This document shows, piece after piece, positions 1-50,535 of a stretch of DNA of 50,535 nucleotides. Source of the DNA: a virus. Location of the stretch: positions 1 to 50,535 of the IMG/VR virus record IMGVR_UViG_3300030098_005177; one strand, 5' to 3'. Under the pieces are notes generated by a model that searched no databases, had not been told where the DNA came from, and saw only the letters and a program-made list of their open reading frames with translations. Each line of letters starts with the position of its first letter. Position 1 is the stretch's first letter. A program made the position numbers and the translations under genes.

Positions 1-109
1 GAAGGTATATGTGAAGAATAAGGCTGGTTATAATATGATGGAGCGAATTACTATCGGTAAGCCTAAGGAAAGGCCTGTAGATGAAAAGCCTTTGGGTGAT
101 GTGCTATAA
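1..109 (+). CDS. 3' fragment of the early hypothetical gene at 50154-50516
   Basis: The reading frame is open from the left edge to the TAA at 107-109 and encodes the last 35 or so residues of the 120-residue protein at the right end of the window, with Ala replaced by Val at one position. It is not a separate gene. On the circular molecule the full gene spans the junction and is the first gene of the plus-strand block. No function is recognised. Confidence 0.9.
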   Translation, partial: KVYVKNKAGYNMMERITIGKPKERPVDEKPLGDVL

Positions 110-128
110 CTTCCTGGATGTAATGGAG
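1..128. repeat. Left copy of 128-bp terminal direct repeat
   Basis: These bases recur at 50408-50535 with one difference: T at 78 against C at 50485. The repeat lies inside the 3' end of a gene and the intergenic bases after it, as expected when a circular or circularly permuted genome is assembled as a linear contig. A true short terminal redundancy is also possible. The mismatch changes Val to Ala in the encoded protein, so the two ends came from slightly different molecules or one holds a sequencing error. Confidence 0.95.
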
Positions 129-2089: not shown

Positions 2090-2272
2090 ATGAAGCCGAA
2101 AACGGATGATTATGAAAAGCACAAAAGATATGTAGTGCATTATAAGATTGCTGATGAAAAAACGTATAAGTTCTTTGACAAAAAGGACCACGCAGAAACA
2201 TTTGCTACTGATGTTGGTGGCAAAATAACAGTGTACACTACACTAGAAAGAAAAGGTAATAAAAATGGCTGA
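2090..2272 (+). CDS. Small hypothetical protein coupled to the ubiquitin-like gene
   Basis: The start is ATG 2090, five bases after AAGGAG; an upstream extension of the frame overlaps the previous gene and is unlikely. The 60-residue product is charged, with a predicted small alpha/beta pattern (YVVHYKIADEKTYKFF, then a helix, then GKITVYTTLE). Its last eight bases overlap the start of the ubiquitin-like gene, so the two should be made in fixed ratio. No family is recognised. It may be an accessory of the conjugation system. Confidence 0.65.
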   Translation: MKPKTDDYEKHKRYVVHYKIADEKTYKFFDKKDHAETFATDVGGKITVYTTLERKGNKNG

Positions 2273-2495
2273 TAATGTAACAACTTCAAGTAATGAAATA
2301 GTTATTGAATTAATGAGCGGAACTGCCGACTATCAAGAAACAAGGACGACAGCACGCACAGTAGGAGAACTAAAGCGAGAACTTGGATTAACAGGAACTA
2401 TTGCTGTAAATAGAGTAATTGCAACTGATGAAACTCCTTTAGAAGAAGGAAGTAAGGTAGTTTTCCGAGGATCAAATATGAAGGGTGGCTGTTAA
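2265..2495 (+). CDS. Ubiquitin-like beta-grasp modifier ending Gly-Gly-Cys (ThiS/MoaD type)
   Basis: This encodes 76 residues. The pattern fits the ThiS/MoaD/ubiquitin beta-grasp fold: strand EIVIELMSG (11-19), strand around residues 24-32, helix VGELKRELGL (33-42), strand TIAVNRVIA (45-53), then the family-typical TPLEEGSKVVFRGS (57-70), and a tail with Gly74-Gly75-Cys76. Such proteins are adenylated by E1 enzymes at the C-terminal glycine and then carry sulfur or are joined to lysines. Downstream genes supply E1, an E2-like protein and a JAB protease, which favours conjugation over sulfur transfer. The extra Cys76 after Gly-Gly implies processing, or direct use of the cysteine. The start overlaps the previous gene; AAAGG lies upstream. 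Confidence 0.85.
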   Translation: MADNVTTSSNEIVIELMSGTADYQETRTTARTVGELKRELGLTGTIAVNRVIATDETPLEEGSKVVFRGSNMKGGC

Positions 2496-2656
2496 TCACG
2501 TCATTCTTATTAGTATAAGTTATAATTGAAAGATATCAAATGGATACGGCAAAGCAACGTCACTCGCTACTATTCAGGTGCACTTGATGTACAGGATATG
2601 TAGAAATGAGCACTAATCCTTTAAGGATACGAAATTTTTATCTTTTAATTTAATTA

Positions 2657-2710
2657 GCAGGGAGGGATCTTTAAATTGCCCGAGGGTATACATTTTTCTT
2701 CCCTCTCTGC
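2657..2710 (+). other. Large hairpin between the ubiquitin-like and E2-like genes
   Basis: The spacer 2496-2728 (233 bases) is the longest gap in the early block. GCAGGGAGGGA at 2657-2667 pairs with TCCCTCTCTGC at 2700-2710 (11 bp, one G-T wobble) around a 32-base loop. It ends 18 bases before the ATG of the E2-like gene. No T tract follows, so it looks more like a leader, processing or attenuation structure than a terminator. A small palindrome TCCTTTAAGGA lies near 2617-2627. The rest of the spacer has no convincing gene. Confidence 0.6.
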
Positions 2711-2728
2711 TTAACTTTAAGGAATAAT

Positions 2729-4462
2729 ATGTTACCAAAACTATTTAAATACGAAAGATTATCTGATGTAGGTGAGTTTTTCACAAAATTAGATAATTTT
2801 AATGTACAATATAACAGTGATGTAGATGTATATGAATCTGCAAGATGGAAAAATGGGACTTATAATAAGTTTAAAAAAATAGCAATAGATACCCAATATC
2901 CTCACTGGAAAAGTAAAAGAGGAGCCAATAAGGTACATAAACTCCTAGAAAGAAGAAATTGGAGATATGAAAACTTCAAAACACAATTAACTGAATTGAA
3001 TAATTTCCTAGTTGGATATAGATATAGAGGTTTAACCTTAAAAAATGAAGAATCTGTAACGGCTGGGAAAACATTTATTGAAGGGTATATTGAAAGTATA
3101 GAAAATATTAGTGATAATAATATTGATGCAGAAATAACTACATCTCCCTGGTTTAGTTCTAAGGATATAAATAAAATCCCTAATGATATGATAAGCTCTT
3201 TTCCTCAGGTGAATGATAAAGGGGAAATATATGAGAAATTATATAATAATGAATTAGATATAGATCGTAATTCTCCATCAAATTGGTACCTAAATATTAA
3301 GTTTGATTTAAGGGATATTATCCTTAAACCTACATATGGTGATAAACCAAGTATAGAAATACCTTTTGGAGATATTTACCTTTTGTTTACGATACCATTA
3401 TCAGGATTATATGATTTAAGTCGATCTAATGGCTCAACTAGATTAAGATCTAGTCTTATTAAGATAAAGCAATGGGCTTATGTCTATCCATACTTTCCTA
3501 AAGTCAAACATCCTTTTGTAACTACTACAAATAATTTTCATTATGAAAGACAGCCGTCAAGTTATAATGATTTAAATTCTTATTCTTTAGGGAATACGTG
3601 CTTTGGAGATTTGCACGATAGAATATTAATATTGATTGGCAAGGGTAGATTTGATGAAGTTATGTTTTATCTTCAAGAATGGTCATCAGCTTATCCTATG
3701 GATACAGTTAACCCATTAAATAATATATCTTATTCTACAATAATATCTGATAAAAATTGGCCAAGTATATATAAAGACAGGATAATAATTGTTCAAGAAA
3801 ATTGCAAAAGAAGAGTTGATTCTTACAAGCAAGGCGGGACTGAACATTATAATCCAGATATAGGAATTAATGAACAATATATAGCAGATAATTGCGTCAA
3901 TTGTGACTTAATAACTAGATGTAATGTCTTTAATGATTATTTATTATGGTCTAACCTTATCGCTAAGTATGAATGTAGCTTATCTAAAAAAGATATAGAT
4001 ATATTGAATAATTTCTATAAAAAGCACTTTAATAACGATAAGTATAAGGATGATTTTATTGAAGCATATGAAGTATTTGTAAATAATATAGCGGATATAG
4101 AAGATTCAAAGAGTTATTTTTGTAGCCTTTTCCAAGAGTTTGATGATATACCTTTTAAGATAGATAGATTTGTCAGTCAAGACTGTATAGATAATTTATT
4201 ATCTGGAACACTTGATTTGGAAGAATTTTGCTATCTGATAGAAGATTTGTGGCTAATTGTAGATAGGCTTTATATAATAGATGTATATCCAGAAAGAGTA
4301 GAAGACTTAGGGATTGATATAACTACTACAAGTCACGCAGATCTAGAAGAGTATCTAATCGCTTGGAAATTTCAAGATGGGGCTAATTATAAACCCTTTA
4401 GAGAAATATTTTTAAACAGATTTATCTCTAAATCAATTCACAAAATAAGGAGAAACAGTTGA
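2729..4462 (+). CDS. Large protein with E2-like (ubiquitin-conjugating) core
   Basis: This encodes 577 residues; an AAGGA ribosome binding site precedes the ATG. Residues 253-331 follow the E2 signature in order: Y253-P254, F256-P257, H261-P262, then after an insertion of about 20 residues GNTC (Cys291) followed by FGDL, and finally S-x-Y-P with N328-P-L-N331. In E2 enzymes the cysteine carries the modifier as a thioester and the C-to-PLN spacing is about 33; here it is 38. The canonical HPN asparagine is Phe263. The flanks of about 250 residues on each side are unrecognised; a CVNC...C cluster near 388-397 could bind zinc. It overlaps the JAB gene by four bases. The E2 call comes from motif order and context, not from a profile search. 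Confidence 0.7.
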   Translation: MLPKLFKYERLSDVGEFFTKLDNFNVQYNSDVDVYESARWKNGTYNKFKKIAIDTQYPHWKSKRGANKVHKLLERRNWRYENFKTQLTELNNFLVGYRYRGLTLKNEESVTAGKTFIEGYIESIENISDNNIDAEITTSPWFSSKDINKIPNDMISSFPQVNDKGEIYEKLYNNELDIDRNSPSNWYLNIKFDLRDIILKPTYGDKPSIEIPFGDIYLLFTIPLSGLYDLSRSNGSTRLRSSLIKIKQWAYVYPYFPKVKHPFVTTTNNFHYERQPSSYNDLNSYSLGNTCFGDLHDRILILIGKGRFDEVMFYLQEWSSAYPMDTVNPLNNISYSTIISDKNWPSIYKDRIIIVQENCKRRVDSYKQGGTEHYNPDIGINEQYIADNCVNCDLITRCNVFNDYLLWSNLIAKYECSLSKKDIDILNNFYKKHFNNDKYKDDFIEAYEVFVNNIADIEDSKSYFCSLFQEFDDIPFKIDRFVSQDCIDNLLSGTLDLEEFCYLIEDLWLIVDRLYIIDVYPERVEDLGIDITTTSHADLEEYLIAWKFQDGANYKPFREIFLNRFISKSIHKIRRNS

Positions 4463-5388
4463 AAGACGAAAATAATAAAGACAAAAAATTCTGGATTCAT
4501 CCAGATGATTTTGATAAAATAATACAGTATGCACAATCTTCATACTCACAATTTAAAGCTGAAATCGCTGGACAATTAATGGTAGTTGAAGATAAAGATG
4601 GAGACTTTATATTAAAGAATCCTGTTATCCTGAAGCAAACAGTATCTGGTGCAGAATGTGATTTAGATGCTGAAGAACTAGCAATTTATTATTCAACGAT
4701 AGCTGAAGAATATGGAACTAATGTTAGACACTGTTGGTGGCATAGCCATCATACTATGGATGCTTTCTGGTCAGGTACAGATAACTCTACGATATTGAAT
4801 AATCCTAGCAAGGATTTTACAGTAAGTTTAGTTATAAACCTTAAAAGAGAGTATAAGCTGAGGATACAATTCTTTAAACCATTTTTACACGAAGAAAACG
4901 TCACTTTAAATTTTCTTAAAACTGAGGATAAATCTAATCCTGAGATTGATGCTGAAGTGAAGAAATTGTGTCAAAAGGAAACTGCATTTGTATATTCAAA
5001 GCAATTGATAGCTAGAGGTCCTAATAATCAATATAATATATTTAATAGAGATGATGATTATGGAGGTTATGGAAACTATTATAATCATTATAGCAGTACG
5101 CTAAATAATGATGTTGATTTAAGTAAATTAGAGGCAAATATGCAAGATACGTTGCTTGATGAGATATCTGCTTTAACTGATAATTTTTATAATGAGCTAG
5201 AAAATAAGGAAGGATATAAGGAATGGAATAAATATGCTAAAAGAAAAAATCAAGAGATCTCTAAATATAATATCAAACTTATCAAGTTTAAAACTAATGA
5301 TGAATTTGAGACAGCTACTATGAGATATTGGCCAGAAGATTATATTCACAATATAAAGAAAGAAAAAAGTATATGCAATTTAATATAA
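4459..5388 (+). CDS. JAMM/JAB metalloprotease (deubiquitinase-like)
   Basis: This encodes 309 residues with a TTG start placed after AAGGAGAAACAG. The JAMM zinc motif is intact: Glu35 in AEIAG, His95-Ser-His97, Ser105 and Asp108, which is the HxH-x10-D spacing with the usual serine. JAB proteases cut after the C-terminal Gly-Gly of ubiquitin-like proteins. In this operon it should mature the Gly-Gly-Cys modifier, remove it from targets, or both. Residues 1-150 hold the JAB domain. The remaining half is charged, with a Tyr/Asn/Asp-rich linker near 190-215, and is unrecognised. Its last 16 bases overlap the chosen start of the E1 gene. Confidence 0.9.
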   Translation: MKDENNKDKKFWIHPDDFDKIIQYAQSSYSQFKAEIAGQLMVVEDKDGDFILKNPVILKQTVSGAECDLDAEELAIYYSTIAEEYGTNVRHCWWHSHHTMDAFWSGTDNSTILNNPSKDFTVSLVINLKREYKLRIQFFKPFLHEENVTLNFLKTEDKSNPEIDAEVKKLCQKETAFVYSKQLIARGPNNQYNIFNRDDDYGGYGNYYNHYSSTLNNDVDLSKLEANMQDTLLDEISALTDNFYNELENKEGYKEWNKYAKRKNQEISKYNIKLIKFKTNDEFETATMRYWPEDYIHNIKKEKSICNLI

Positions 5389-6038
5389 GAAGCAGTGGTT
5401 TAATTAATGACTTTGGAAATAAAATCTTCCATATACTTGGTTGCGGGGCTATAGGTAGTTCCGCAGCTACTCAATTATGTCGTATGGGTGTAGAAAATTT
5501 TATTCTATATGATATGGACAAAGTTGGAGTAGAAAATATTGGCGTAAGTCAATTTACTACTAAAGACATAGGAAGAAGCAAAGTTCAGGCTCTTAAAAGA
5601 CAATTACTTGATATAAATAGTAATATATCATCAGTTCTTTCTGATGGAGAATTTAAAGAGTATTTCAAGAAGTTAGATAGTCGAGACGTGGTTATTATCG
5701 GTTTTGATAATATGGCTATAAGAAAACAGGCTGCAGAGTTAGCATTATCACGCCCCAACAAACCGTTTTTATTAATAGACGGAAGAATGGGTGCAGAACA
5801 ATACCAACAATATGTTTTTGTTAATCCAAAATTAAAGGATTATATGAAATATTGGTATGATGATGACTCAGCATCTACTGAACCTTGCAATGCAAAAGCA
5901 ACGAGTTATTGTTCAAATATGAGTGGTAGCTTTATAGCAAATGCAGTTAAGAAAGTTATGAATAATGAAGGGTATAGTAAAGAATTTTTCTTTCAATTTC
6001 CCAATTATTCCTTGGGAAGATCAAGCGTTATTCATTAA
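5373..6038 (+). CDS. ThiF/E1-like adenylating enzyme
   Basis: The start chosen is ATG 5373, giving 221 residues; a TTG at 5328 extends the frame but lacks a binding site and adds a basic tail. The Rossmann nucleotide loop HILGCGAIGSS gives Gly23-x-Gly25-x-x-Gly28. ILYDMDKV supplies Asp47 and Asp49, and GRSKVQAL supplies Lys70. The usual N-x-x-R-Q motif reads ENIGVSQF, so the arginine is replaced. PCNAKATSY places a candidate thioester cysteine at 172. E1 enzymes adenylate the glycine end of ubiquitin-like proteins. The protein is core-only, with no ubiquitin-fold domain, as in ThiF/MoeB. It overlaps the JAB gene and closes the cassette. Confidence 0.88.
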   Translation: MQFNIRSSGLINDFGNKIFHILGCGAIGSSAATQLCRMGVENFILYDMDKVGVENIGVSQFTTKDIGRSKVQALKRQLLDINSNISSVLSDGEFKEYFKKLDSRDVVIIGFDNMAIRKQAAELALSRPNKPFLLIDGRMGAEQYQQYVFVNPKLKDYMKYWYDDDSASTEPCNAKATSYCSNMSGSFIANAVKKVMNNEGYSKEFFFQFPNYSLGRSSVIH

Positions 6039-6155: not shown

Positions 6156-6824
6156 ATGTTAGAAGTGACAAAACGTAAGGCCGTAACACAGGACCCAAAA
6201 ATTCTGTTGATTTATGGCCCCCCTAAGATAGGGAAAACTACTATGCTCTCTAAATTAGATAAATGTCTAATATTAGATACAGAGCAAGGAGCACGTATGG
6301 TCGATGGCCATATAGTAGAAGTTGATTCTCGCAAAGCGTTAATCGATTTAATTAAGAAAGCAAAAGACGGGCATTCTTTCAAATACATAGCTATTGACAC
6401 TATTGATAAAGTAGTACAATGGGCTGAAACTGCTGTATGTGAAGAACACGAAGTTCAATCACTAGCAGATTTACCATTTGGTAAAGGTTGGGGACTTGCT
6501 CGTGATAAGGTAATGAATACAATCAAAACTTTATCTGGATTATGTGACCATCTAATAATAGTTGGACACAGAAAGACTGCAAAAGCTATTGTTGAAGGTA
6601 ATGATGCAATAGAACCTGAGTCTTTAGAAATAACAGGTAGATTGAAGAATATGATTATGGCAGATTGTGATGCTATTGGATATGTCTTTAGAGACGAAGA
6701 AGAAGTTTTAAAATTAACTTTCAAAAGTAATAATACTCTAGAGGCAGGTTCAAGAAGTCCACATCTACGTGGCAAAGTTCTTGACTTTGATTGGAAACAA
6801 ATATATTTAGGAAAGGCAAAATAA
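6156..6824 (+). CDS. Sak4-like RecA-fold ATPase (recombination/annealing)
   Basis: This encodes 222 residues. A P-loop GPPKIGKTT spans residues 21-29, followed by LILDTE and a Walker B-like FKYIAIDT near residues 70-77. This compact single-domain RecA/AAA type is the Sak4 or phage nucleotide-binding family, which promotes single-strand annealing with a partner SSB. The next gene overlaps by one codon unit (TAATG) and looks like that SSB. It starts the replication part of the plus-strand block, after an AAGAGG ribosome binding site. The match is by motif and context. Confidence 0.8.
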   Translation: MLEVTKRKAVTQDPKILLIYGPPKIGKTTMLSKLDKCLILDTEQGARMVDGHIVEVDSRKALIDLIKKAKDGHSFKYIAIDTIDKVVQWAETAVCEEHEVQSLADLPFGKGWGLARDKVMNTIKTLSGLCDHLIIVGHRKTAKAIVEGNDAIEPESLEITGRLKNMIMADCDAIGYVFRDEEEVLKLTFKSNNTLEAGSRSPHLRGKVLDFDWKQIYLGKAK

Positions 6825-7414
6825 TGGCTTTATTTAAACCAGAAATAAAAGAACCAGTAACTTTTAGTGGAATCTGTAAATGTGCAATAGTAGGCTTTGA
6901 GGATAAATCAGCCGAATTTGAATGGGCAGATATGTTTATTAATGTAATTGTGAAACAAGAAGGTAGCGATTATACTAGAACTATATCTATTAAAGGATCT
7001 GTAGAAAAAGATACTAATGGTGTAGTAACAGGTGGAACCATATTTAATAAGTTATACCGCGTGTTTGATACTTTAAAGTGTAGTGCAGGTGTAAATATTA
7101 ATGGTGAATGGGAAGATGATAAAGGCAATCCTATTACTGATATTGCAGATTATCTTACTTCAAGATATGCAGTAGATCCTAATAATGTAAATAGTTTTCC
7201 TTATTTAGGATACTTTTATAAGAGTGCCCCTAAAACTCCAGGAGGACAATCTTATAATCAATCTATACCTTACTTAGTTCATAATGATGATGCTGGTAGA
7301 GCAACTTTAAACAAGACTGTTAATTGGATGAAAGATAAAGGATATTTGAAAGAGTTTAATCCTAATTCAAAAGAGTCAGCTGAATTAACAGAAGTTTCAT
7401 TAGGCAACTTATAA
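6824..7414 (+). CDS. Probable single-stranded DNA-binding protein
   Basis: The start is ATG 6824, overlapping the Sak4-like stop; AGGAAAGG lies upstream. The 196-residue product has a beta-rich N-terminal half (FSGICKCAIVG, FINVIVKQ, TRTISIKG) consistent with an OB fold, and an acidic, disordered-looking C terminus. Its place between a Sak4-like ATPase and a primase-helicase is classical for a phage SSB. No diagnostic motif exists for such divergent SSBs, so the call rests largely on context. It is directly followed, with no gap, by the primase-helicase. Confidence 0.6.
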   Translation: MALFKPEIKEPVTFSGICKCAIVGFEDKSAEFEWADMFINVIVKQEGSDYTRTISIKGSVEKDTNGVVTGGTIFNKLYRVFDTLKCSAGVNINGEWEDDKGNPITDIADYLTSRYAVDPNNVNSFPYLGYFYKSAPKTPGGQSYNQSIPYLVHNDDAGRATLNKTVNWMKDKGYLKEFNPNSKESAELTEVSLGNL

Positions 7415-9205
7415 ATGAAGTATATCGAGATAGCGCAAGGATCCCCAAGATATAGGGGAACTCTTATAGAGCTAAGTGACCTCGGTAAATTTATAGATAA
7501 AGAGGGGACGCCATTATATCGTTCCCTCTACATCTATAATGAAGAAGCTGCAGATTATGTAAATAAGCACAATAGTCTACGCAATTTTTATGGTGAAAGA
7601 AGTATAGATAAAATATTAATTGACATAGACAAAGGTAATAACTCGGATGAATATACATTAGATCGAGCACGCAGTATTATAAATGATCTAGATGATTTGG
7701 ATGTACCTAAATCAGGCTATCAATCATATTTTAGCGGTACTGGTTACCATATAATATTGCATAATGATTTATTTAATTTCAGTCCAAGTATTGACTTGCC
7801 ATATTTAGTTAAAGCCACTATAAAGGATTTATTTCCAATAGCGGATTTAGCAGTATTAAGTAGAACAGCTATATATAGAGTGGCGCATACTAAAAACCTT
7901 AAAACAGGTTTATATAAAGTGCCTTTAACTCGTAAAGAACTAATGCATTTATCTGTAGATGATATAAAGCATTTAGCTTCAACTCCAAGATTATCTGCTG
8001 GATATGGAGGTACATTAATAGCTGATGGTGAACTAGAAGAATATACAACAAGTAAGCATCAGGCTTTAGATAAAACGCGAACTTTATCAAAAGTAAGAGA
8101 ACCTAATAAAGTAATTCCTTGTATACAGGATATGCTTGCTAAAGGTCCACAAGAAGGCGCAAGAAATACTACAGCGATGCGTATTGTAAGTTCTTTTAAG
8201 CGTGCTGGTATACCTAGTCAATATGCAAAAGTTGCAATACTGCACTGGAATGATAATCAAGTAGAGCCCAACAGATTGTTGGAATTAACAGAACGTGTTT
8301 ATAATAATCCTTATCAATATAGCTGTAATGATGAACTAATGAGTAAGCACTGTAAAACTAGGTGTATACACTTCAAGAATAAAGATTATAGTATTGAGGT
8401 TACATCTTTAGAAGATTTACAATCTAAATTAGTAGAACGTATGAAAACTGATTTTAGTGGTAAGTCTATAGATATATGTGCTATGCTTGGATTAAATGGA
8501 GTAGATTCAACCATATATCCCGGTGAATTAGTTACAGTAATAGGTAGAACAGGTTCAAACAAGAGTACATTTGTTCAAAATTTAGCATTAGGTGTTGATT
8601 TTGCAAATAACTCAATTAGACCAGAATGGCATATCCCAACTTTATTTCTTTCACTAGAATTAGCAGATTGGTATATGCATAGACGTGGTTTACAAATAGT
8701 CTCAGGAATGGGTAAAGATGATGTAAATAACAACCTTGAAGAACTCTTTTTAAAGCATAAAGATGACTTAGGCCATATACAATTTCAAACAACATCACCA
8801 ACAATCCCACAGATACAGGCTAAAATAAAAGAGCATCAACCCGCATTAGTTATAGTTGATTATATTGACTTAATAGATGCAGGTTCTGCAGGGCGGAGTG
8901 AGCACGAGAAAATTAAATACATTTCTCATACTTTGTCAAATATGGCTGTTAATAACGATTTAATCATTATCCAAGTGGCTCAAGTAGGAAGAGAGCATAG
9001 TAAGGCAAGTGATGATTTATCTTTATATTCAGCAAAAGGTAGTGGTGCTATAGAGAATGCATCACGCAAAGTAATTTCAGTCGATGGCAGTGCTGATAAT
9101 CCAGTAAAAACTATTCGTATGCTTAAAAATACTGATGGTGATTCAAATTGGGAAGCAAAAGTTGAGTGGAACGAATCTTTTAGATTAAGGAGAATATATG
9201 ACTAA
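7415..9205 (+). CDS. AEP-type primase fused to DnaB-like replicative helicase
   Basis: This encodes 596 residues. The N-terminal part has KILIDIDKG (the hDhD metal motif) and, about 40 residues on, YFSGTGYHIIL, typical of archaeo-eukaryotic primases. A CNDELMSKHC...C...C cluster near residues 306-320 may bind zinc. The C-terminal RecA fold has Walker A GRTGSNKST at 377-385 and Walker B ALVIVDYIDLI near 480, then IIIQVAQVGR, as in DnaB and T7 gp4 helicases. It should unwind the fork and make primers. It is the central replication gene; no DNA polymerase accompanies it. Confidence 0.85.
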   Translation: MKYIEIAQGSPRYRGTLIELSDLGKFIDKEGTPLYRSLYIYNEEAADYVNKHNSLRNFYGERSIDKILIDIDKGNNSDEYTLDRARSIINDLDDLDVPKSGYQSYFSGTGYHIILHNDLFNFSPSIDLPYLVKATIKDLFPIADLAVLSRTAIYRVAHTKNLKTGLYKVPLTRKELMHLSVDDIKHLASTPRLSAGYGGTLIADGELEEYTTSKHQALDKTRTLSKVREPNKVIPCIQDMLAKGPQEGARNTTAMRIVSSFKRAGIPSQYAKVAILHWNDNQVEPNRLLELTERVYNNPYQYSCNDELMSKHCKTRCIHFKNKDYSIEVTSLEDLQSKLVERMKTDFSGKSIDICAMLGLNGVDSTIYPGELVTVIGRTGSNKSTFVQNLALGVDFANNSIRPEWHIPTLFLSLELADWYMHRRGLQIVSGMGKDDVNNNLEELFLKHKDDLGHIQFQTTSPTIPQIQAKIKEHQPALVIVDYIDLIDAGSAGRSEHEKIKYISHTLSNMAVNNDLIIIQVAQVGREHSKASDDLSLYSAKGSGAIENASRKVISVDGSADNPVKTIRMLKNTDGDSNWEAKVEWNESFRLRRIYD

Positions 9206-11502: not shown

Positions 11503-11515
11503 AAAGGAGTTGATT

Positions 11516-12340
11516 GTGAAAAATATGTATGAATTTAATAATGCAACTAAGAGAATGAGAGAGTTCTTTCAAGATGAAAAAGGATTTATTGAGGTGCCAG
11601 CCCAATCAAGGCAATCAATATTAGCTGCTTGTGAAGACCCTGCTACAATATCTCAATATATCTTTAGTGGTATAAACTGGCCATTGCCTCAAACAGGACA
11701 AATGTGGCTAGAAAGAGACTTATTAGATAACCCTGACGCTAAAGGTGTTTTCTGTGTAAGCACAAGTTATAGAAATGAACCTAATCCAGTAGAAGGTAGA
11801 CACGATAAGATATTTCCAATGTTTGAGTTTGAATCTCACGGTAATATGGATGATATGATTAAATTAGAACGTGAATTATTAGAACATCTCGGATTTGGAT
11901 CAGACCATAAGGAGATTACTTATGATGATGCTTCTCGTAAATATGATGTTAAGCTATTAGATTATGCAGAAGAAGAGGCTTTGTGTGAAGAATATACTAA
12001 GTGTGTATTCTTAAAAGATTTCCCATTAAGAACTCATCCATTTTGGAATATGAAGCATAAAGGTAATGGTATATATAGTAAGGTTGATGTTATTATGCAC
12101 GGGATGGAGACTATTGGTAGTGCTGAACGTGCAACAGATGTGCAAGAAATGAGAGATCAATTTCATAATATATCTGATGGAGAATATGCTAACTTATTAT
12201 TCAATCACTTTGGACGTAAGCGTGTTGAAGATGAATTAGAAGAGTATCTTGCACTTGATATGTTTGAACGATTTGGTGGTGGAATAGGTGTAACTAGAAT
12301 GGTTTCAGCTATGAAGGCTCACGCAATAAATCAACTATAA
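11516..12340 (+). CDS. Class II aaRS-like core, AsnRS-derived asparagine synthetase (AsnA/AS-AR type)
   Basis: GTG 11516 is chosen because AAAAAGGAG ends six bases upstream; this gives 274 residues. Class II motifs are clear: motif 2 VSTSYRNEPNP followed by FPMFEFE, and motif 3 FERFGGGIGVTRMV with the terminal arginine. There is no anticodon-binding domain. AsnRS/AspRS catalytic cores of this size are known as asparagine synthetase A and its archaeal relative (about 290 residues), which form asparaginyl- or aspartyl-adenylate and make free asparagine. It may supply asparagine for the Asn-rich phage proteome or modify another acceptor. The exact substrate cannot be read from motifs. Confidence 0.78.
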   Translation: MKNMYEFNNATKRMREFFQDEKGFIEVPAQSRQSILAACEDPATISQYIFSGINWPLPQTGQMWLERDLLDNPDAKGVFCVSTSYRNEPNPVEGRHDKIFPMFEFESHGNMDDMIKLERELLEHLGFGSDHKEITYDDASRKYDVKLLDYAEEEALCEEYTKCVFLKDFPLRTHPFWNMKHKGNGIYSKVDVIMHGMETIGSAERATDVQEMRDQFHNISDGEYANLLFNHFGRKRVEDELEEYLALDMFERFGGGIGVTRMVSAMKAHAINQL

Positions 12341-14475: not shown

Positions 14476-17400
14476 TTAAACTAATCCTGTCCCAGGCGTA
14501 GTAATTTCCCGATCTTCTTCTTTTAATTTTGTTATCTTCTTTTGAGCCTGTAATAACGGGAATCCTGTAGTCTTCTCTAAAACTCTTATTGGGTTCTCTA
14601 TCAAATTACCCGGACCTGCTATATCTCTAGCCATACGTCCAAAAGGAAACATAGTCCAAACATAGTATTGAGACACTTTAGACCAATCGTCATCAACCAA
14701 AGCACGCATTGAGGAGGGCAGTAACCTAAAAACGGGAGGAGTCACCATTTGCAGCGGGGCTAACTGCTTAGGCCACTGCCCAAAAAATGCTCTATCCCTT
14801 TCAGTTTCATCACCGAAGATCCAGTCCGCGGTATCTTGAAACCAATTCCAAGGAGCAGGTAGAGCAGTCTCAAACAATGAATACGCAAATGCATTGGCTA
14901 ATGCAAATACAAAAATATCAATTTGCGCCGTTCTTACAAACTTATCATACGCTTCAGTTCCAGGTTTCAGCCCATACATCTTGGCTTCACGCCATATATC
15001 ATTTCTAAACCTAACAGCATTCCAGCTCCACAATTGAAAACGCGTCATAACCTTTCCTAATGCAGACCTTGCAAATGCAGGTCTAAAAGGCGCAGAATAT
15101 AAGAATTGAGTAGCCTTAACGCCCTTTTTAGCCATCTCTATTATATAAGGATGATTCGGGTCCTTTAAAGCGCCTCCAAGCTTATTCCAGGCATTAATAT
15201 AATGAGCCATAAAAGCATCACGCCTAATAGCACGCTCTGGTACAGTCATAAACTTAGCAGCAAATTGCATAATATTATCTTTGACTTTATATTTTTGAGC
15301 TATGTCCTTAAGCGTTGTTTCTGTCATTTTAGGGTTCTTTGTTAATTTATCTGCTACCTCTTGAATAAACTGCTTATTTTTAGCTTGTTTAAATTCTGCT
15401 TTCAACCCAGATTCATATAGCATATATTCTGGAACTACACCTGTTCTTTCTACGAAATCAGATACATCACTCATACTATTCCAGTCATTATTAATATTCT
15501 TTTTCAACCACTGGATACTACGAGCGTTTTTAAAAGAAGCCCATCCAGCTGATTGGATTGTATGTGCAGATCCACCAAAAATATTAGTAACCATACTTTT
15601 AGGATGAGCTAATAAAGAAGCCATTTGATATTGAGCTTCAAGATTCGCTATATTGCGTACTGTTTCTAAATCTGTTTTACGCAACTCAGAAGGCAAAGTC
15701 ATATCCATTAATCCGAGCTTTTCTTTTATTTTATCAATGCGTTCTGCAGACTTATTGTCAGCCCACCAAGCATATGCTGTGCCTTGGAGTTTTAAATTTT
15801 TATTATTTAAATAATGATCAGGAATATTAGTCGGATTACCCATAGCATCTTGAACATATAGCCTCATAAATTGATTCCAAGCATCAGCTTGATCTTTCCC
15901 TTGAGATTCATTAATGACTTTATACATTCTATCTAATATATTTCTAGAGAAAATTTGAGATAATTGCCTATAATATGCATTAGTAGTTGACCTAATATAA
16001 GTTTCAGGAACATTACTATCAACAGACCACCCTTCTATATGGCTACCACGAGTTTGCATACTTCCAGTTCCTTCGTTTGAAGTAAACCATTTTATCTTAT
16101 CTTTAGCATCAGCACGCTTGGCATCTATAGCCTCTATTGCTTCAGAATAAGCATTCCAATCATTAATGTCTTCTATTTTCCATTCACCTGTAACATTATG
16201 ATGTTTATGTATTAATTTTTTCAGCTCATTAGCCTTTAACTCTTTAGCCTTCTCTATATCTGTATGGAAATCTTTTAATGGAGTACTTTCAATTTTAGCA
16301 TACGCCTTTTTAAAGGATTCAGAAGCTTTCTTTTTATTAAAAAACATATGCGGCCAATAAAAATTATAATCTATCTTATTAGTTCTATTCTCAGATTTTT
16401 TTATAGCATTTCTAAGTTCTTTATACTCAGGTCGATTAGCTAAGTCTAGCATCATAGATCTAGCAACAGACTTTAATCCATCAATACCAAAATCTAAAGA
16501 CGGATTCTTTCCTTGTTTCCAGGCTGTAGTTAAGTGTCTAATAAATTTAGGAACATCTATAATAGGATTTCGTTTATTGGCAGGATCCAAAAACCCTTTA
16601 ATAAATCCACCCTCTTTTAATGCTAGATTAACTCCATCTGCATCAACTTTACCTGTCATTAGCCTATGCTGTTCTTTGAATATATTAGTATACTCTTTTG
16701 ATATTATATCTACAACTTCTGAACCAGTGTATGTCTTTACTTCTTTCCCAGGCAACTTAATATTATAATTTTTACTTAATAAGGCGCTATGCTCTTTAAT
16801 TATATCTTTATAAGCTTTAATATATTGCGCTTTTTCAAAAGGATTTAATTTGCTCGCCCAATTAGCATAACCGTGTTCTCTTTTCCTAACAGCTATTTGC
16901 CTTAATATTTCTCCATCAGGAATACTGTCCACAAATAGTAATCTTTCTTTAAGGTCTCTTATATAATATTCTGTTTGCTCTGTACTTGCATCGTTCATAC
17001 GAGCTATCCATTGTTGCGTTATATCTATATAATGAGTAGGAACTTTAATTACACCTTTTAATCTTCTTGCGTCTTTAGTAAAATAAAAGCCTTCTTGCTC
17101 CATTAGTTCAATATTATCACGCATCAACTCCCTATTAATAGTTTTAGGGAATAAGTACCAATGACGTTTTTGTAGTTTTTGTAAGCCTTTTTTATCAAAT
17201 ATTTGTTGCCAGATAGTTCCACGTTTTATATCTTTAAACCATTCGTTTAAAGCTCTAAATTCTTCTAAGTTAAGAGCATTAAGATCCTTGTTAAAAAATC
17301 CTCTTATTATTTCATTAATATTTTTACCAACTTTATTATTATAGGTCCTTATATTAGCTACCAATTCTGACATAACACTTCTCATATCTTTAGGTAAATC

Positions 17401-20400
17401 TGATATTTGAACACCTTTCTTGAGAGATTCATATCCTGTACTAGATTCTTCTAGAGGCTCATATATAGGATCTTCCAAAGGAGATTCTTTGGATTTAACA
17501 TAATCTTTCTGTACTTCTGCAGCTTTATCTGCAATTTTCCTTGCCTCTTTAAAGCTTGTCATAGACGTTGTTTCGGCCGCATCAACCATATCTATTAAAT
17601 CACCTGTTACTTTGTCTATATTTTTATCACTAATCTCACGAGACATATAGCCCAATCGTGAAGTAGATGTCTTTGAAGCACGCATCCTCATATCCCGTAT
17701 AAGGTTCTTTACTGGAACTAAAGAAGACTTCTTGCCAAGACCTTTTTCTAAAGCGTCAATAGCCTCTAGCTCACCACGCCTTAAAGAACCTAGCATCATA
17801 TGGTCAAATAGATCTTGCTCTTTTGTGCTAAGATTATTTTTAAATTTTCGAATTTGAGAGTCGATTATAGATTGATCTAGTTTACGAGAACGCTCCCCTG
17901 CTAATGCATATCTTAATTCTGGAGGTAAAGTTGCTAACTTTTCAGGACTTTTCTTTGCCCATTCCAATATAAAATCTCTTGATAGAGAGTCAATATCCTT
18001 TAAAGAAAGCGTGATATCTGATCCAGTATCTCTACCCATTAGCCAAGATTTATTCTTTAAATCTTCTACCTTTTTACTTATCTTTTCTACATTTGCTAAT
18101 TCCGATTTAGACATATCCCCGGTTATTTCATATATATTCTTCAGAGTAATCATATCTGTTAAATCATTATATAAAAAGTCTTCAGACAATCTGTTTAATT
18201 TTTCAAGAATATTCATTCTTTGCGTGACGCTTTTATCCCATTCGACAATATCTTGATTTTTTAAGCCAACTTTATTTTTCCAAAATATTTCATCACCAAT
18301 TTTTTTATTAAATTCAATCCCCAGCAAATTTTTAAAAATATCTTTATCGTTAGCTATTTCTTCTCTAAATCTAGGATTATGAAGCTCTTTGCTTAACGCC
18401 AATTCAATTAATTTTGTCTCTGGGACTTTAAAGCTTGATCTGCCTAATTGCCTTTTAAGCCACTTAAATTCATCAACATTTTTATTAACTTCAGTATATA
18501 GATCTTCAATCTTCTTTTTATCAATTCTTCTATAAATTGAATCAGTCCAATCTAATGGACCTAAAAGTCTGCCTGTTTTAGCTAAAGAGCTGCCCATCTG
18601 AGGCTCTGAAAGATTGAAAGCTCCTCCAGCCATATCTTGTATTTCAGACATAGTATATCGTCTGCCCTCAGCCCAATTACGTCCCCAAAATGCACTATTA
18701 ATATCTTTAAAGCTATTATATAAAGGGCTTTGTAAGTCAGATGCAGATAAATCAGCAGGATTAATATACTTAACCTCTTTACCCTTTTTATTAAATATTC
18801 CCTTTATCTTGAAATGGGAATCAAATAATTGCTTAAACCAAACTGAATGAGATTTCATACCTAATTCATCCATAGGGTCAGAAGCAAAAGCAACCTCAGC
18901 ACGTGCTACACCTCTAGCATAATCCCTAAAGCGCTTATCAGAACGCGGTTCTATTATTATCTGCAATTCTTCAACTTTACCGGTCTTTTCATTAAACCAT
19001 TGTAAAGGAATTACCTCTTCCTTAGCAGGCGACTTAAGAGCTGCAGCGTGAGCTGCTGCCATCATTTGCTTAGGAACTATAGCAGACATACCTAAGGCCA
19101 TACGTCCTTGTACAGTAGCCTCTGATATCCTCATACGCTCTGTAGGAGAATACATAGCTCCTAAAGAACCAAAGTGTGCTTTTTGTTTAGGGGTTAAATC
19201 TCCGCTAATAGTAAGCAAATCTCTAAAAGTTTTGATATTGTCACTTATTCCTAATTCTTTTTTAATATCAGAAGGAATTTCAGCGCTCTTATTATCACGC
19301 ACTATTGTACGTTTACCTACTTTTTCATAAAATTCTTCTTTATTGGCGTGAATAGCATCTTTCCAGGACTTTCTCATTCCGTGAGCTTCATCACCAAAAA
19401 AGAAAAACGCTTCGTCACCATCAAGATCTGCACCACCAAGAGCCCGCATTGATTTAGAATGTAATAAGATGCCGTGCCCATCTCTACCAGTAAATCCACC
19501 AAACTTTAATATATGAGCACCAGATATAGAATCCATAGGGACACGATAAACCACAGCCCTCAATACTTCTTCAGCCTCCTTTTTAGCAAATTCTAAATGG
19601 CCTTTTTCATAGGCTTCATAAAATTCTCCTAGGGTGGTATTTTCCATTCCTCTAATAGACGTTTTTAATTTCTGAGCCTTGTAAGCGTTATCTAAAAAGA
19701 ATACCGTACTATCTTTATTGGCACCATCTTTTGCATCAGCTAATAATCTTTTATTGGCTTTGTCAAGATTATGCTGCATAGCTAAATCATATGGGCGTAT
19801 TCTAGCAACACCTGAATTTAATACTTTAGGCTTAGTAGCTTCACGCACTATATAATTTCTAAAGGCCTGCATTCTCCAATCACGCATTTCTTTATGGAGA
19901 AGCACTGCTATAGGAGATTTTTTATCTTTTTGGGTAGAAATATATCTTAAGGCAGAATTAATCCTGCGTTCTGCTTGAGACTCGAAGTCTCCTAATTCTT
20001 GAATAGACCTGTCATATTGCTCTTTAGTTATCTCTCCTGATGCCACATCCTCTTTAAAAGATCTTCTTTGAAGCCTAAGCATCTCTCTATAAGCCATATC
20101 AGCAAATTCTGGGTTATTAGGATCCTTCATAGCATCTAAAATTTGAGTTATACCAAGTTCGTTAAAGTTTTTCCTTAAATTCTTTAATTTAGATAGACTA
20201 GGTTCAGCCTGATAGTCAAGCAGTAAATTGTTATATTTTTCACTGCCGTTAAAACGCTCACCTACCAGGGAATTAAATACATCATCAATAACTTCTCTAG
20301 GTACAGGAACTTTAGTATTCTCTAATAATGCTCCTAATAACTGTTTTGCTACCCTTTGAGGATGAGTCATCTCTGCACTATTCACTACAGAATAATTATA

Positions 20401-23400
20401 TTTAATATCAGAAGGGTTTAAGGAATATGATGATCCTTTAAATTTTGGGATATTTTTTTCTATATTCAATTCCCCAAAGCCTCGTCTTCCACGTTGCTTT
20501 ACTGCGCTCTCTTGCATATACATATGGAGATTAGCTTTTTCCATCGCCTCAGACATCTTGGGGCCAGCTTTATGAATCATATACTTACCAAGCAATGCTC
20601 CTAAAGGTTGACCTAATACATCGGACTCACCGCGTGATATTATAAAAGATTTATTTTGACCTGAAGAAGGCATCCCTGCATCTAGTAATAGCGCATCTAC
20701 AACCTTATCGTGCATCACTATTGCACCATCAACGTGTTCTCCTAATTGATTTGAATCCCTTAAGACCTCAGAAGAAAATAAGGGATCATAATCTTTATGA
20801 TTTTTATCCATTTTATTTCTAATGGATTCAGGCAAATCACGTATTATTGTATAATTTAATTTTCCATCGCCATTATAATCTAAACCTTCTTTTTCTAAAT
20901 TCTTTTTAGTGTAAACATTATCACCAGGAATTGCATCTGTAAACCATATTTGAGAACGCTTATTAAAAGCTTTGGAAGATGTTATAAAATCATTATTTTT
21001 AGAAGTAAATTCTTTTATAGAAGCATTTAAATCAACCCAATTCTCTGTTTTAAAACCATTCATCTGTAGGTCATATAGTAAATTAGATAAATAGGACTTC
21101 TTAAAATAATCTTTAGTCTTAATTATATTGCCTACGTTAAAATTAGCTATAAATTCTTTTTCAGCAATTTTATAATCATTAAGCATCTTATTGTCACGCA
21201 GGAGTTTATTGAATTTAGTAACGCCTAAAGTCTCAAAGTTTTTTAACCTAGGATTAAACTTTACAAAATACATTCTATCATTATCACCCTTACCGCCATA
21301 AAGATAGAAATCTTTTTCATCCGCCTTCCTCATAGCTCTGCCAATTAGATTATTATATTCTCTTCTAGCTTCCGCCATATTCTTTTTATTCTTGTAGAAT
21401 AAATTACTATTTAAATATCTGTTAGGAGATACATCAATAGCATTTCCATATTTATCTGTAGTAGTTATATGGTCTAATACGGATAAAGAGGTACCCTTAC
21501 CACCTTGTTCAGCAAAAGCAATTTGAATAGCGGTGTCAGGAGCAAGTAAATATTTTTTTTGACCAGCACCAGTAATAGGGGCCCTTGAATCACCCTCTTT
21601 ATTTAAAAATTTTAAACCATACTTATCATCAAGGCCTAAGACTATAACTTGAGAAGAAAGATTTCTTCTTGCCATTTGCTGCCTTAGTCGTCCTCTTGAT
21701 TCTCTATCAAGCTTTACTTCAAATCTTTTAGATAAGTCATTAGCCCATTGTTCAGATTTGTTTTCTACTGTATTTGTAGCATACTGCTCTTTTGATGTTT
21801 GCATATATTCAGCAATCTCAAATTGCTTCATCCTATTCATACTAGCTTCGCCTATATCCCAGGCATCTCTCATATATCTTTCTACAAACTTTAATGGACC
21901 GTGCCCAACTCCTCTGTTCCCTATATCTAAGTCTTCTTTACTATACGACTCCTCAATAGGCTCACCTTTTAATATTTCTCCAGTTACAACGTCATATTGA
22001 TAAATTCTTCCTTCATTAGCCTTCTCTGTATACTCAGCTTCTAAAGCATCACGTTCTTTTTCTAGAAGTTCTATATCCTTTTTAGATAACTTACTTTCCT
22101 TTAAAGAGCCTTTTGCTATTTTCCCCTCTATATTTTTAATTTCAGACTCTAAATGGTCTAAATAATTTTTACGAGTATCTTTAGTTTCAATTGCTTTCTT
22201 TATTTCAGCAGCTTCTGCCTTAGAAGGCTGTACTTTCTTTAACTTATAATTCTCCGTCACAAACTTAAGCACGGCTTCTTTAACGTGAAGTGGAATATCA
22301 GTACTTCGAGTCTTAGGGTTATAAAATCTAGTCCCAATAGCCGCCCATTCTTTTGGAGGTGGGGAAGGTTTTTCTATAGGTATGAAACGATTGGCTTTAT
22401 AGTCAAAGTTGTGCCATTTTTTTGAACTTACATCATAAACATTAATCTTTAAACCTTTATCTCGAGCCATCTGGACTCCCCATCCAGTTCCGCCTTTTAC
22501 AGTCCTTCCAATAAGACCTAGCTTCTGGCTTCTTTCTTTAGCAGGTCCAGTTAAATCTGCTGTAGACTTGACTATATCACCAACAGCATATACTGCAGAA
22601 GCGTTTTTAATTTGCCACCAATTCCTTCTAATAGCATTCCATCCACCTTGTGATAATCTTGATAAGTCTCTTCCAAGAGTTTGATTAGCTTGAGCTACAC
22701 GTGTATTGGCTGATTCAAGCTGACTTTCAGTTAACTTATGAGTTCTTAATCCTTTAGCATCAGCGTGACCTAATCTTTGGCCCCCTTTAAAACTGTAGTG
22801 AATCACAGGAACGCCCATATCAGTTAACGCGCTTCCCCATAATTGATCAGAGCCTTTTGCTCCACCAGACATTACTATCGCTTTAAATTTTTTGAGAGTC
22901 TCCTTAGTTGGTACGTATGTAGTTTCACCAGTACCTTTTTCAATCCGAGTTTCGAATCCTTCGATATCTTGCTTAACTTCTTTTCCAACTTTTTCAGGGG
23001 CAAACTCCTCTCCTAAATATGAAGATACATAACGCCTCATAGCTGGATCCCCATACCCTTTAAATTCAGTACCAGGTATACCATAAGCAGCGTATTTTTT
23101 TATAAGTGGCTTAATCTCTGAGGGCAATTCAGCCCAATCTGGATGCAATTCAGGATCTCTATGGACATCCATTTCCTTATCAGTTTTAGCCATCTTATCC
23201 ATTTTACCAATAAATTTTCTAGCTTTAGCTACAGTCCAAGATGTTTCTTGGCCTCCAAAGTATGCTCCCATAACATACTCATATATTTGCTCTGGAGTAG
23301 TGGCACCACGCATAGTGGTAGGCAGTCCCATAAATAGCGATCCCGACAGAGCTCTCACTCCCTTTTGCATCTTTTCACTGCCATCAATTTTTATATTTCC

Positions 23401-50153: not shown

Positions 50154-50516
50154 ATGACTACGCAACAAGCTAAAGATAGATTGGAAGAATTGATTAAAGT
50201 TATAAGTAATAATAGTTATAGGATTTTTGATTGGGGTGTTTCAATTCGCAAGAATGATATCAATCATAAAGCCCTTGCTAAGCATAAAGATGAACTACTT
50301 GAATTGTGCTTAATACGTAATAAAGTATTCCAACATCTAGAAGATGTATTTGAAAATAAAATGGACGTTGAAATGGGCCCAGATGGCACCCTTGTACCAG
50401 TTATGAAGAAGGTATATGTGAAGAATAAGGCTGGTTATAATATGATGGAGCGAATTACTATCGGTAAGCCTAAGGAAAGGCCTGCAGATGAAAAGCCTTT
50501 GGGTGATGTGCTATAA
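50154..50516 (+). CDS. First early gene, hypothetical (120 aa)
   Basis: This encodes 120 residues. AAGGA lies ten bases before the ATG. It is mostly helical and charged, with VMKKVYVKNKAGYNMMERI near the C terminus and no recognisable motif. As the first gene after the divergent region it should be among the earliest products to reach the host, so it may act on host functions. Its 3' end is repeated at the start of the window and it is followed by the terminator at 126-158. Confidence 0.75.
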   Translation: MTTQQAKDRLEELIKVISNNSYRIFDWGVSIRKNDINHKALAKHKDELLELCLIRNKVFQHLEDVFENKMDVEMGPDGTLVPVMKKVYVKNKAGYNMMERITIGKPKERPADEKPLGDVL

Positions 50517-50535
50517 CTTCCTGGATGTAATGGAG
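50408..50535. repeat. Right copy of 128-bp terminal direct repeat
   Basis: This is the partner of bases 1-128, with C at 50485 instead of T at 78. It shows that the window is a whole circular (or terminally redundant) genome of about 50,407 unique bases. Confidence 0.95.

Follow-up and report, generated by a model that had tools for sequence, protein, structure and literature searches.

Four consecutive genes of a marine phage genome likely encode a ubiquitin-like conjugation pathway that is active in early infection, a reading for which no biochemistry is available. The genome (IMG/VR record IMGVR_UViG_3300030098_005177, 50,535 bases) was analyzed at its full length, here called the window. 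It carries a direct terminal repeat of 128 bp (99%; window 1-128 and 50408-50535), so the record probably represents a complete genome. The minus strand encodes phage terminase, portal, major capsid and internal-virion proteins, and the plus strand holds a replication block that includes the four-gene cassette at window 2265-6038. The genome lacks tyrosine and serine integrases, which fits its description as "lytic-looking" in a first-pass annotation made from the sequence alone. The cassette and the syntenic replication genes downstream of it (6156..9205, plus strand) are laid out as follows:

2265..2495, plus strand: putative ubiquitin/ThiS-like modifier precursor (the tag), 76 aa, ending KGG then C; ThiS match and invariant GG
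2729..4462, plus strand: predicted E2-like conjugating protein (E2L), 577 aa; invariant C291 and model of a relative, L007
4459..5388, plus strand: JAMM/MPN+ (JAB) metalloprotease, 309 aa, TTG start; complete JAMM motif
5373..6038, plus strand (reading frame open from TTG 5328): E1-like adenylating enzyme, ThiF fold; Pfam ThiF 2.8e-21
6156-6824, plus strand: Sak4-like AAA_24 gene; AAA_24 7e-31, phrog_124 Sak4-like
6791-7414, plus strand: gene of a 207-aa protein between the Sak4-like and primase-helicase genes
7415-9205, plus strand: primase-helicase gene; DnaB-like/primase phrogs

The first-pass annotation had claimed four consecutive genes supplying a complete modifier pathway in the early block of the phage. 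All four reading frames are where it placed them on the plus strand, in the order tag, E2L, JAMM, E1, and they are closely packed: the JAMM start and the E2L stop share four bases, and there is a further overlap between the JAMM and E1 genes. For the E1, the ATG at 5373 is the more likely start, because relatives begin there. The reading of these genes as a complete pathway is supported by synteny, by invariant catalytic residues, by the E2-like model of L007, by a profile match of the protease to Rpn11 and by ThiF/E1 matches. The parts, their order and conservation, the catalytic residues and the core status of the cassette in the lineage are shown; the E2-type domain is predicted, in a relative.

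A 233-base gap (window 2496-2728) without a plus-strand reading frame of at least 40 aa separates the tag from the E2L gene and might harbor regulation of the cassette. Elsewhere, the genome encodes a 276-aa class-II aminoacyl-tRNA-synthetase core (window 11510-12340, plus strand; tRNA-synt_2 5e-16), about 53-57% identical to "tRNA ligase" proteins of Prochlorococcus phages P-SSM2, P-SSM5 and P-SSM7 and 46-50% identical to proteins in metagenomic phage records of 484-735 kb. By far its largest gene (window 14476-24072, minus strand) encodes a 3198-residue protein without a Pfam match.

Active-site residues and predicted folds

Only the E1 was certain from single-sequence searches; the JAB protease and the tag were marginal, and the 577-aa protein was unmatched. 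The E1 belongs to the E1/ThiF/MoeB superfamily, since the GxGxxG of the adenylation domain and the acidic and Arg/Lys nucleotide contacts are present: G38/G40, D62, D64, N70, K85 and D127 are invariant among 36 E1 sequences. Its best NCBIfam scores were to ThiF models, and the PADLOC E1-E2 models of bacterial antiviral systems matched it at 4e-16. One cysteine alone is invariant among the 36 sequences, including those of crAss and Flavobacterium phages, namely Cys172 as counted from ATG 5373 (Cys187 of the longer reading frame; context EPCN). From this conservation we infer that it is the candidate catalytic thioester cysteine; there are no thioester data.

The PDB matches of the E1 comprise MccB, UBA5, UBA6, ThiF, MoeB, NEDD8-E1, Cap2 and PaaA. 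As the best of these is MccB, a peptide adenylating enzyme without conjugation, one could imagine that the E1 adenylates or cyclizes the small protein into a bioactive peptide rather than a conjugate, with MccB and PaaA both among the best matches. We consider such peptide modification very unlikely: the match is limited to the common adenylation domain, which is also found in UBA6, UBA5 and NEDD8-E1, and the JAMM protease, the E2L and an invariant cysteine would be left unexplained.

The tag of the window alone matched Pfam ThiS only marginally (E 0.0051). Among 55 tag relatives, 20 matched ThiS at E 0.1 (best 1.6e-4), whereas the tag profile had no significant match among PDB sequences. That the tag is a beta-grasp, ubiquitin-like modifier is thus inferred from these ThiS matches, and no structure was predicted. 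The only invariant columns among the 55 sequences are G74 and G75, and the GG is found in 74 of 74 distinct tags. Most relatives have zero to two residues behind it and others have longer tails, while in three loci (L049 3725-4348, L050 2288-2878 and L087 2686-3300) a DUF7303 domain is fused behind the Gly-Gly. This range of short, long or DUF7303-fused ends is the pattern of a protease-trimmed precursor. DUF7303 is a stand-alone gene in other relatives, and the fused tags resemble ubiquitin fusion precursors. Some matches to the tag profile were a different, DUF7303 protein and were discounted, since the fused precursors had drawn them in.

The JAMM motif is complete (E35 / H95-x-H97-x7-S105-x2-D108; in the window H95-S-H97 and S105-G-T-D108). 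Pfam Prok-JAB matched the window protein alone only marginally (E 0.012). All five motif positions are invariant among 58 JAB sequences, crAss and Flavobacterium phages included, and a profile of these relatives matched, over the active-site motif, Rpn11 (3e-4) and CsRpn11, an archaeal Rpn11 homologue (2.4e-6). The invariant motif and the profile match identify the product as a JAMM/MPN+ metalloprotease, with its fold inferred.

The E2L is the least recognizable of the four. The window's 577-aa protein alone had no known match (Pfam to E 1, NCBIfam), and an IMG/VR search with it as single query returned zero relatives because the family is too divergent; relatives were reached only through the E1 and synteny. 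Searches of the window for UQ_con and Prok-E2_D gave no match, but the controls were silent too, so this result is uninformative. A search of 90 E2L members at E 0.1 gave 42 Pfam families, each with one or two members, and no E2 family was among the 25 shown. The E2L profile found nothing significant among PDB sequences. At a mean column identity of about 13%, the sole invariant column among the 90 relatives is C291, which lies within GNTCFG and forms part of the motif H261-P262...G288-N-T-C291. Four further cysteines (C359, C389, C392 and C398) are 81-96% conserved and may form a zinc site. The length of the protein ranges from 433 to 738 aa in the phage lineage.

AlphaFold2 gave no usable model of the window E2L with 10 sequences (pLDDT 40), whereas the E2L of L007 was modeled with 90 sequences at pLDDT 87.3 and pTM 0.79. 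L007 is only about 19% identical to the window protein, and the E2 fold rests on this model alone. In a Foldseek search of the model against the PDB the top match was an E2, but not at a significant level (E 0.79). With VIA-align, 50 of 50 listed entries were ubiquitin E2 enzymes or E2 variants, spanning residues ~135-304 around the cysteine (Z 5.3-6.1, rmsd 3.2-6.5). A Z of 5-6 is lower than the safe level of the tool and would be weak if taken alone. It is the uniform match list, together with the place where the invariant cysteine lies and with the HPx...G.xC motif, that makes an E2 the best reading, and the model of this one relative predicts that the E2L contains a UBC-like domain. Since no member had a listed match to a Pfam E2 model, the E2L would be a new E2 family. 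A 1146-aa protein of an uncultured Caudovirales phage (BFVD A0A6J5NL39) is structurally similar to the E2-like model (E 0.008, prob 0.99) and might be an E2 fusion.

Most of what the first-pass annotation had read into the individual genes held: the Gly-Gly tail (the KGGC end, with GG invariant in 55 sequences), the JAMM protease with all catalytic residues including His95 of HSH, the E1-like adenylating enzyme with Cys172, and the E2-like cysteine protein with Cys291. The lack of an E2 fold around that cysteine would have refuted it; a check on the predicted structure of L007 gave no such refutation. Its beta-grasp modifier has sequence support only.

These parts bear on an alternative in which the cassette is a sulfur carrier: the ThiF-like enzyme would adenylate a ThiS/MoaD-like protein, which as a thiocarboxylate would pass sulfur to a nucleotide, tRNA or cofactor, and the JAMM protease would only trim the C terminus, as in CysO/Mec+ systems. 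In favor of this reading, the tag is closer to ThiS/MoaD than to ubiquitin, and ThiF models are the E1's best NCBIfam scores. However, sulfur transfer offers no role for an always-present E2L with a single invariant cysteine, no rhodanese was found in the phage genome and the surroundings of the cassette showed no genes for thiamine or molybdopterin, so that we regard a sulfur carrier as unlikely.

A core cassette in a large lineage of phages

IMG/VR scans with the E1 gave 15 close loci, and profile scans gave 323-334 stretches encoding relatives; a non-redundant set of 145 loci was compared. Of these, 120 have space for a JAB gene ahead of the E1, and all 120 carry it there. At least 3.8 kb of upstream sequence was available in 75 loci, three from crAss-like or Flavobacterium phages and 72 others. 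An E2-like gene is present in 72 of these 72 (71 by an automatic rule, plus L172, where the gene is slightly more distant) and a tag in 69 (64 automatically and 5 by eye). The order tag-E2L-JAB-E1 is thus common to essentially all relatives with enough upstream sequence, which argues against a chance arrangement. Because the order recurs and the catalytic residues named beforehand are the invariant ones, we consider the observation itself settled. In some relatives a spore-photoproduct-lyase-like gene lies upstream of the E2-like gene (L106 2765-3625 and L195 2570-3430), in L106 between it and the tag.

A primase gene follows the cassette on its 3' side in 97 of 100 loci with space. A scan was also run with the primase only, without use of the cassette, and the best 80 contigs of 254 relatives were kept; all 54 contigs with enough upstream sequence have the E1 ahead of the primase, as expected for a core cassette and not for a sporadic defense island. 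Among 26 of the primase-retrieved contigs with space for the full set, 21 carry the window type and five (L232, L242, L246, L248 and L258) a divergent cassette, type B, in the same slot. In type B the tag ends in KSG, the E2L carries HPHIxxGxxC, the JAB shows FFSGTD or YYSPTD and the ThiF contains CTAKHT; a further scan found 39 loci of type B. The E2L motif reads HP[FY][IV]...G.xC in most type-A proteins and HPH[IV]xxGxxC in type B, the latter close to HPN..G..C, the canonical E2 motif, and the two types align across the cysteine (hhalign E 9.5e-6). That one version is swapped for another in the same slot argues for a needed function. The cassette therefore belongs to the core of a large lineage and is not peculiar to the window phage, which corrects the first-pass annotation.

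Between relatives, dN/dS is 0.05-0.22 for the tag and 0.06-0.30 for the E1, which indicates purifying selection on both, 0.15-0.34 for the JAB and 0.32-0.63 for the E2L, which evolves faster than the other cassette genes. A diverging E2L next to a constrained tag and E1 is the pattern one would expect of an E2 that encounters variable targets.

It is possible, though less likely, that the cassette serves in counter-defense, competing with or reversing a host Bil/Bub or CBASS Cap2/Cap3 system through decoy tags or through JAMM cleavage of host conjugates. The resemblance of the E1 to the E1 domains of antiviral systems (the PADLOC matches above) and the fast evolution of the E2L speak for this. 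Against it, a decoy or a protease alone would suffice, yet four parts are retained together; the E1 is present in every one of the 54 primase-found contigs, unlike sporadic anti-defense genes; and purifying selection on the tag and the E1 is strong.

Likeness to other phage cassettes and bacterial systems

Comparable cassettes occur in crAss001 (gp76-gp79), DAC15, cr106_1, cr111_1 and Flavobacterium psychrophilum phage FpV4, some of them cultured. They share the order small protein, cysteine protein, JAB, ThiF and lie close to primase and uracil-DNA glycosylase genes. Their JAB (7e-39 to 9e-48) and E1 (1e-62 to 3e-70) are homologous to the window family. In contrast, their tag has a conserved KSG or RSG, that is, an SG end, followed by a long C-terminal part. 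Comparison of the type-B and crAss E2-like profiles gave no match, so the case for kinship of the crAss E2-like proteins is made only by gene order, by the homology of JAB and E1, and by weak matches of the type-A E2L model to BFVD structures (E 0.001-0.007). In cr106_1 (L019 722-1925) an HNH endonuclease gene is inserted in the tag gene, splitting the tag domain from the C-terminal part directly after KKIKSG. The cassette genes of these phages are annotated as thiamine biosynthesis/ThiF, metalloprotease or hypothetical; neither the crAss001 paper nor the Yutin 2021 paper mentions the cassette, and a crAss ThiF/ubiquitin cassette is undescribed in the open-access literature searched (subscription papers were outside its scope).

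Bacterial counterparts are already known, whereas a full ubiquitin-like pathway in phages appears to be unreported, with no report in the open-access literature searched, subscription papers excluded. Bacterial operons of Ub-like, E1, E2 and JAB genes were described as rows 6a-6e by Iyer et al. 2006 (PMC1779556). Those of row 6d, one of them in Bacteroides, likewise have separate Ub-like, JAB, E1-like and E2-like genes. However, they add a helical protein, their E2 lacks the canonical histidine and their JAB has an N-terminal extra domain, whereas the phage operon is part of a phage core and its E2L is 433-738 aa long, carries HP..G..C and lacks a Pfam E2 match. CBASS Cap2/Cap3 (PMC10097602) and Bil/Bub share with the cassette an E1 adenylation domain, a JAB protease and, as predicted for the phage, E2-type transfer, and differ in that the carrier here is a phage. 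A tag of its own also comes with the Bub/Bil type. In Cap2, E2 and E1 are fused and a cyclase is conjugated, whereas the phage E1 and E2L are separate genes and no cyclase (CD-NTase) was found among the neighboring proteins scanned; membership in CBASS Cap2/Cap3 was rejected on these grounds. PRTRC membership was rejected as well: the weak NCBIfam matches of ThiF to PRTRC_ThiF (1.6e-4; 21.1 of 144.75 bits) and of JAB to PRTRC_A (0.03; 13.9 of 101.8) are far under the cut-offs, and PRTRC models did not match the E2L or tag. A scan of bacterial genomes with E1 patterns found no relative, but as it was limited by the patterns, absence is unproven.

A phage-encoded Ub-like protein adjoining a JAB protease is also found in lambda-like phages, where the pair TAPI and TAPK takes part in tail assembly (PMC1779556). 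That pair comes without E1 or E2 in a tail assembly cluster, while the cassette is a predicted full cascade in an early replication block. One could therefore suppose that the tag is put on phage structural proteins and needed in assembly, a sub-case of the pathway with a different target. This would fit a core function and has the TAPI/TAPK precedent, but the cassette lies in the plus-strand replication block, apart from the structural genes on the minus strand, and virion modification seems unlikely.

Proposed pathway and its meaning

In the conjugation pathway that we favor, the JAMM protease would cut the tag precursor behind the Gly-Gly, which in the window tag removes one Cys. By the known chemistry of its family, the ThiF-like E1 would adenylate the C-terminal glycine of the tag and carry it as a thioester, probably on Cys172, from which the tag would be transferred to Cys291 of the E2L. 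The E2L would then attach it to target lysines through an isopeptide, and we propose that its extra domains and possible zinc site help select substrates. Later, the JAMM protease would strip the tag from its targets. Against certainty stand the lack of biochemistry and the fact that no E3 or target has been identified.

The first-pass annotation had offered three roles, to mark host proteins, disarm host defense or modify the virion, and the evidence decides none of them. Because the cassette is not an accessory one and stands immediately ahead of the Sak4-like and primase genes, we infer that it most likely serves to modify, in a reversible way, a target in replication, recombination or host takeover that the phage encounters in every infection. 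That the E2L evolves fast suggests that it tracks variable targets. We also lean, by a narrow margin, toward a bolder reading, in which a self-sufficient viral pathway, near-universal in a large marine phage lineage and matched by a counterpart among crAss-like phages, drives early infection by covalently tagging proteins of the phage or the host through a new family of large E2s with a eukaryote-like HPx..G..C motif.

As more than 100 relatives of this phage keep the set, and common gut phages have a divergent form of it, it is tempting to speculate that protein tagging may be basic to the infection of bacteria by these viruses. In bacteria, ubiquitin-like pathways are mainly known for acting against phages, and a core pathway in phages would, if true, reverse this picture; viruses would be able to carry a whole ubiquitin-type cascade and not just borrowed pieces. 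Its role would be directly testable in cultured carriers of a comparable cassette, namely crAss001 (Bacteroides intestinalis), DAC15 (B. thetaiotaomicron) and FpV4 (Flavobacterium psychrophilum), and the comparable crAss cassette would assign a function to genes so far without annotation in an abundant group of human gut phages.
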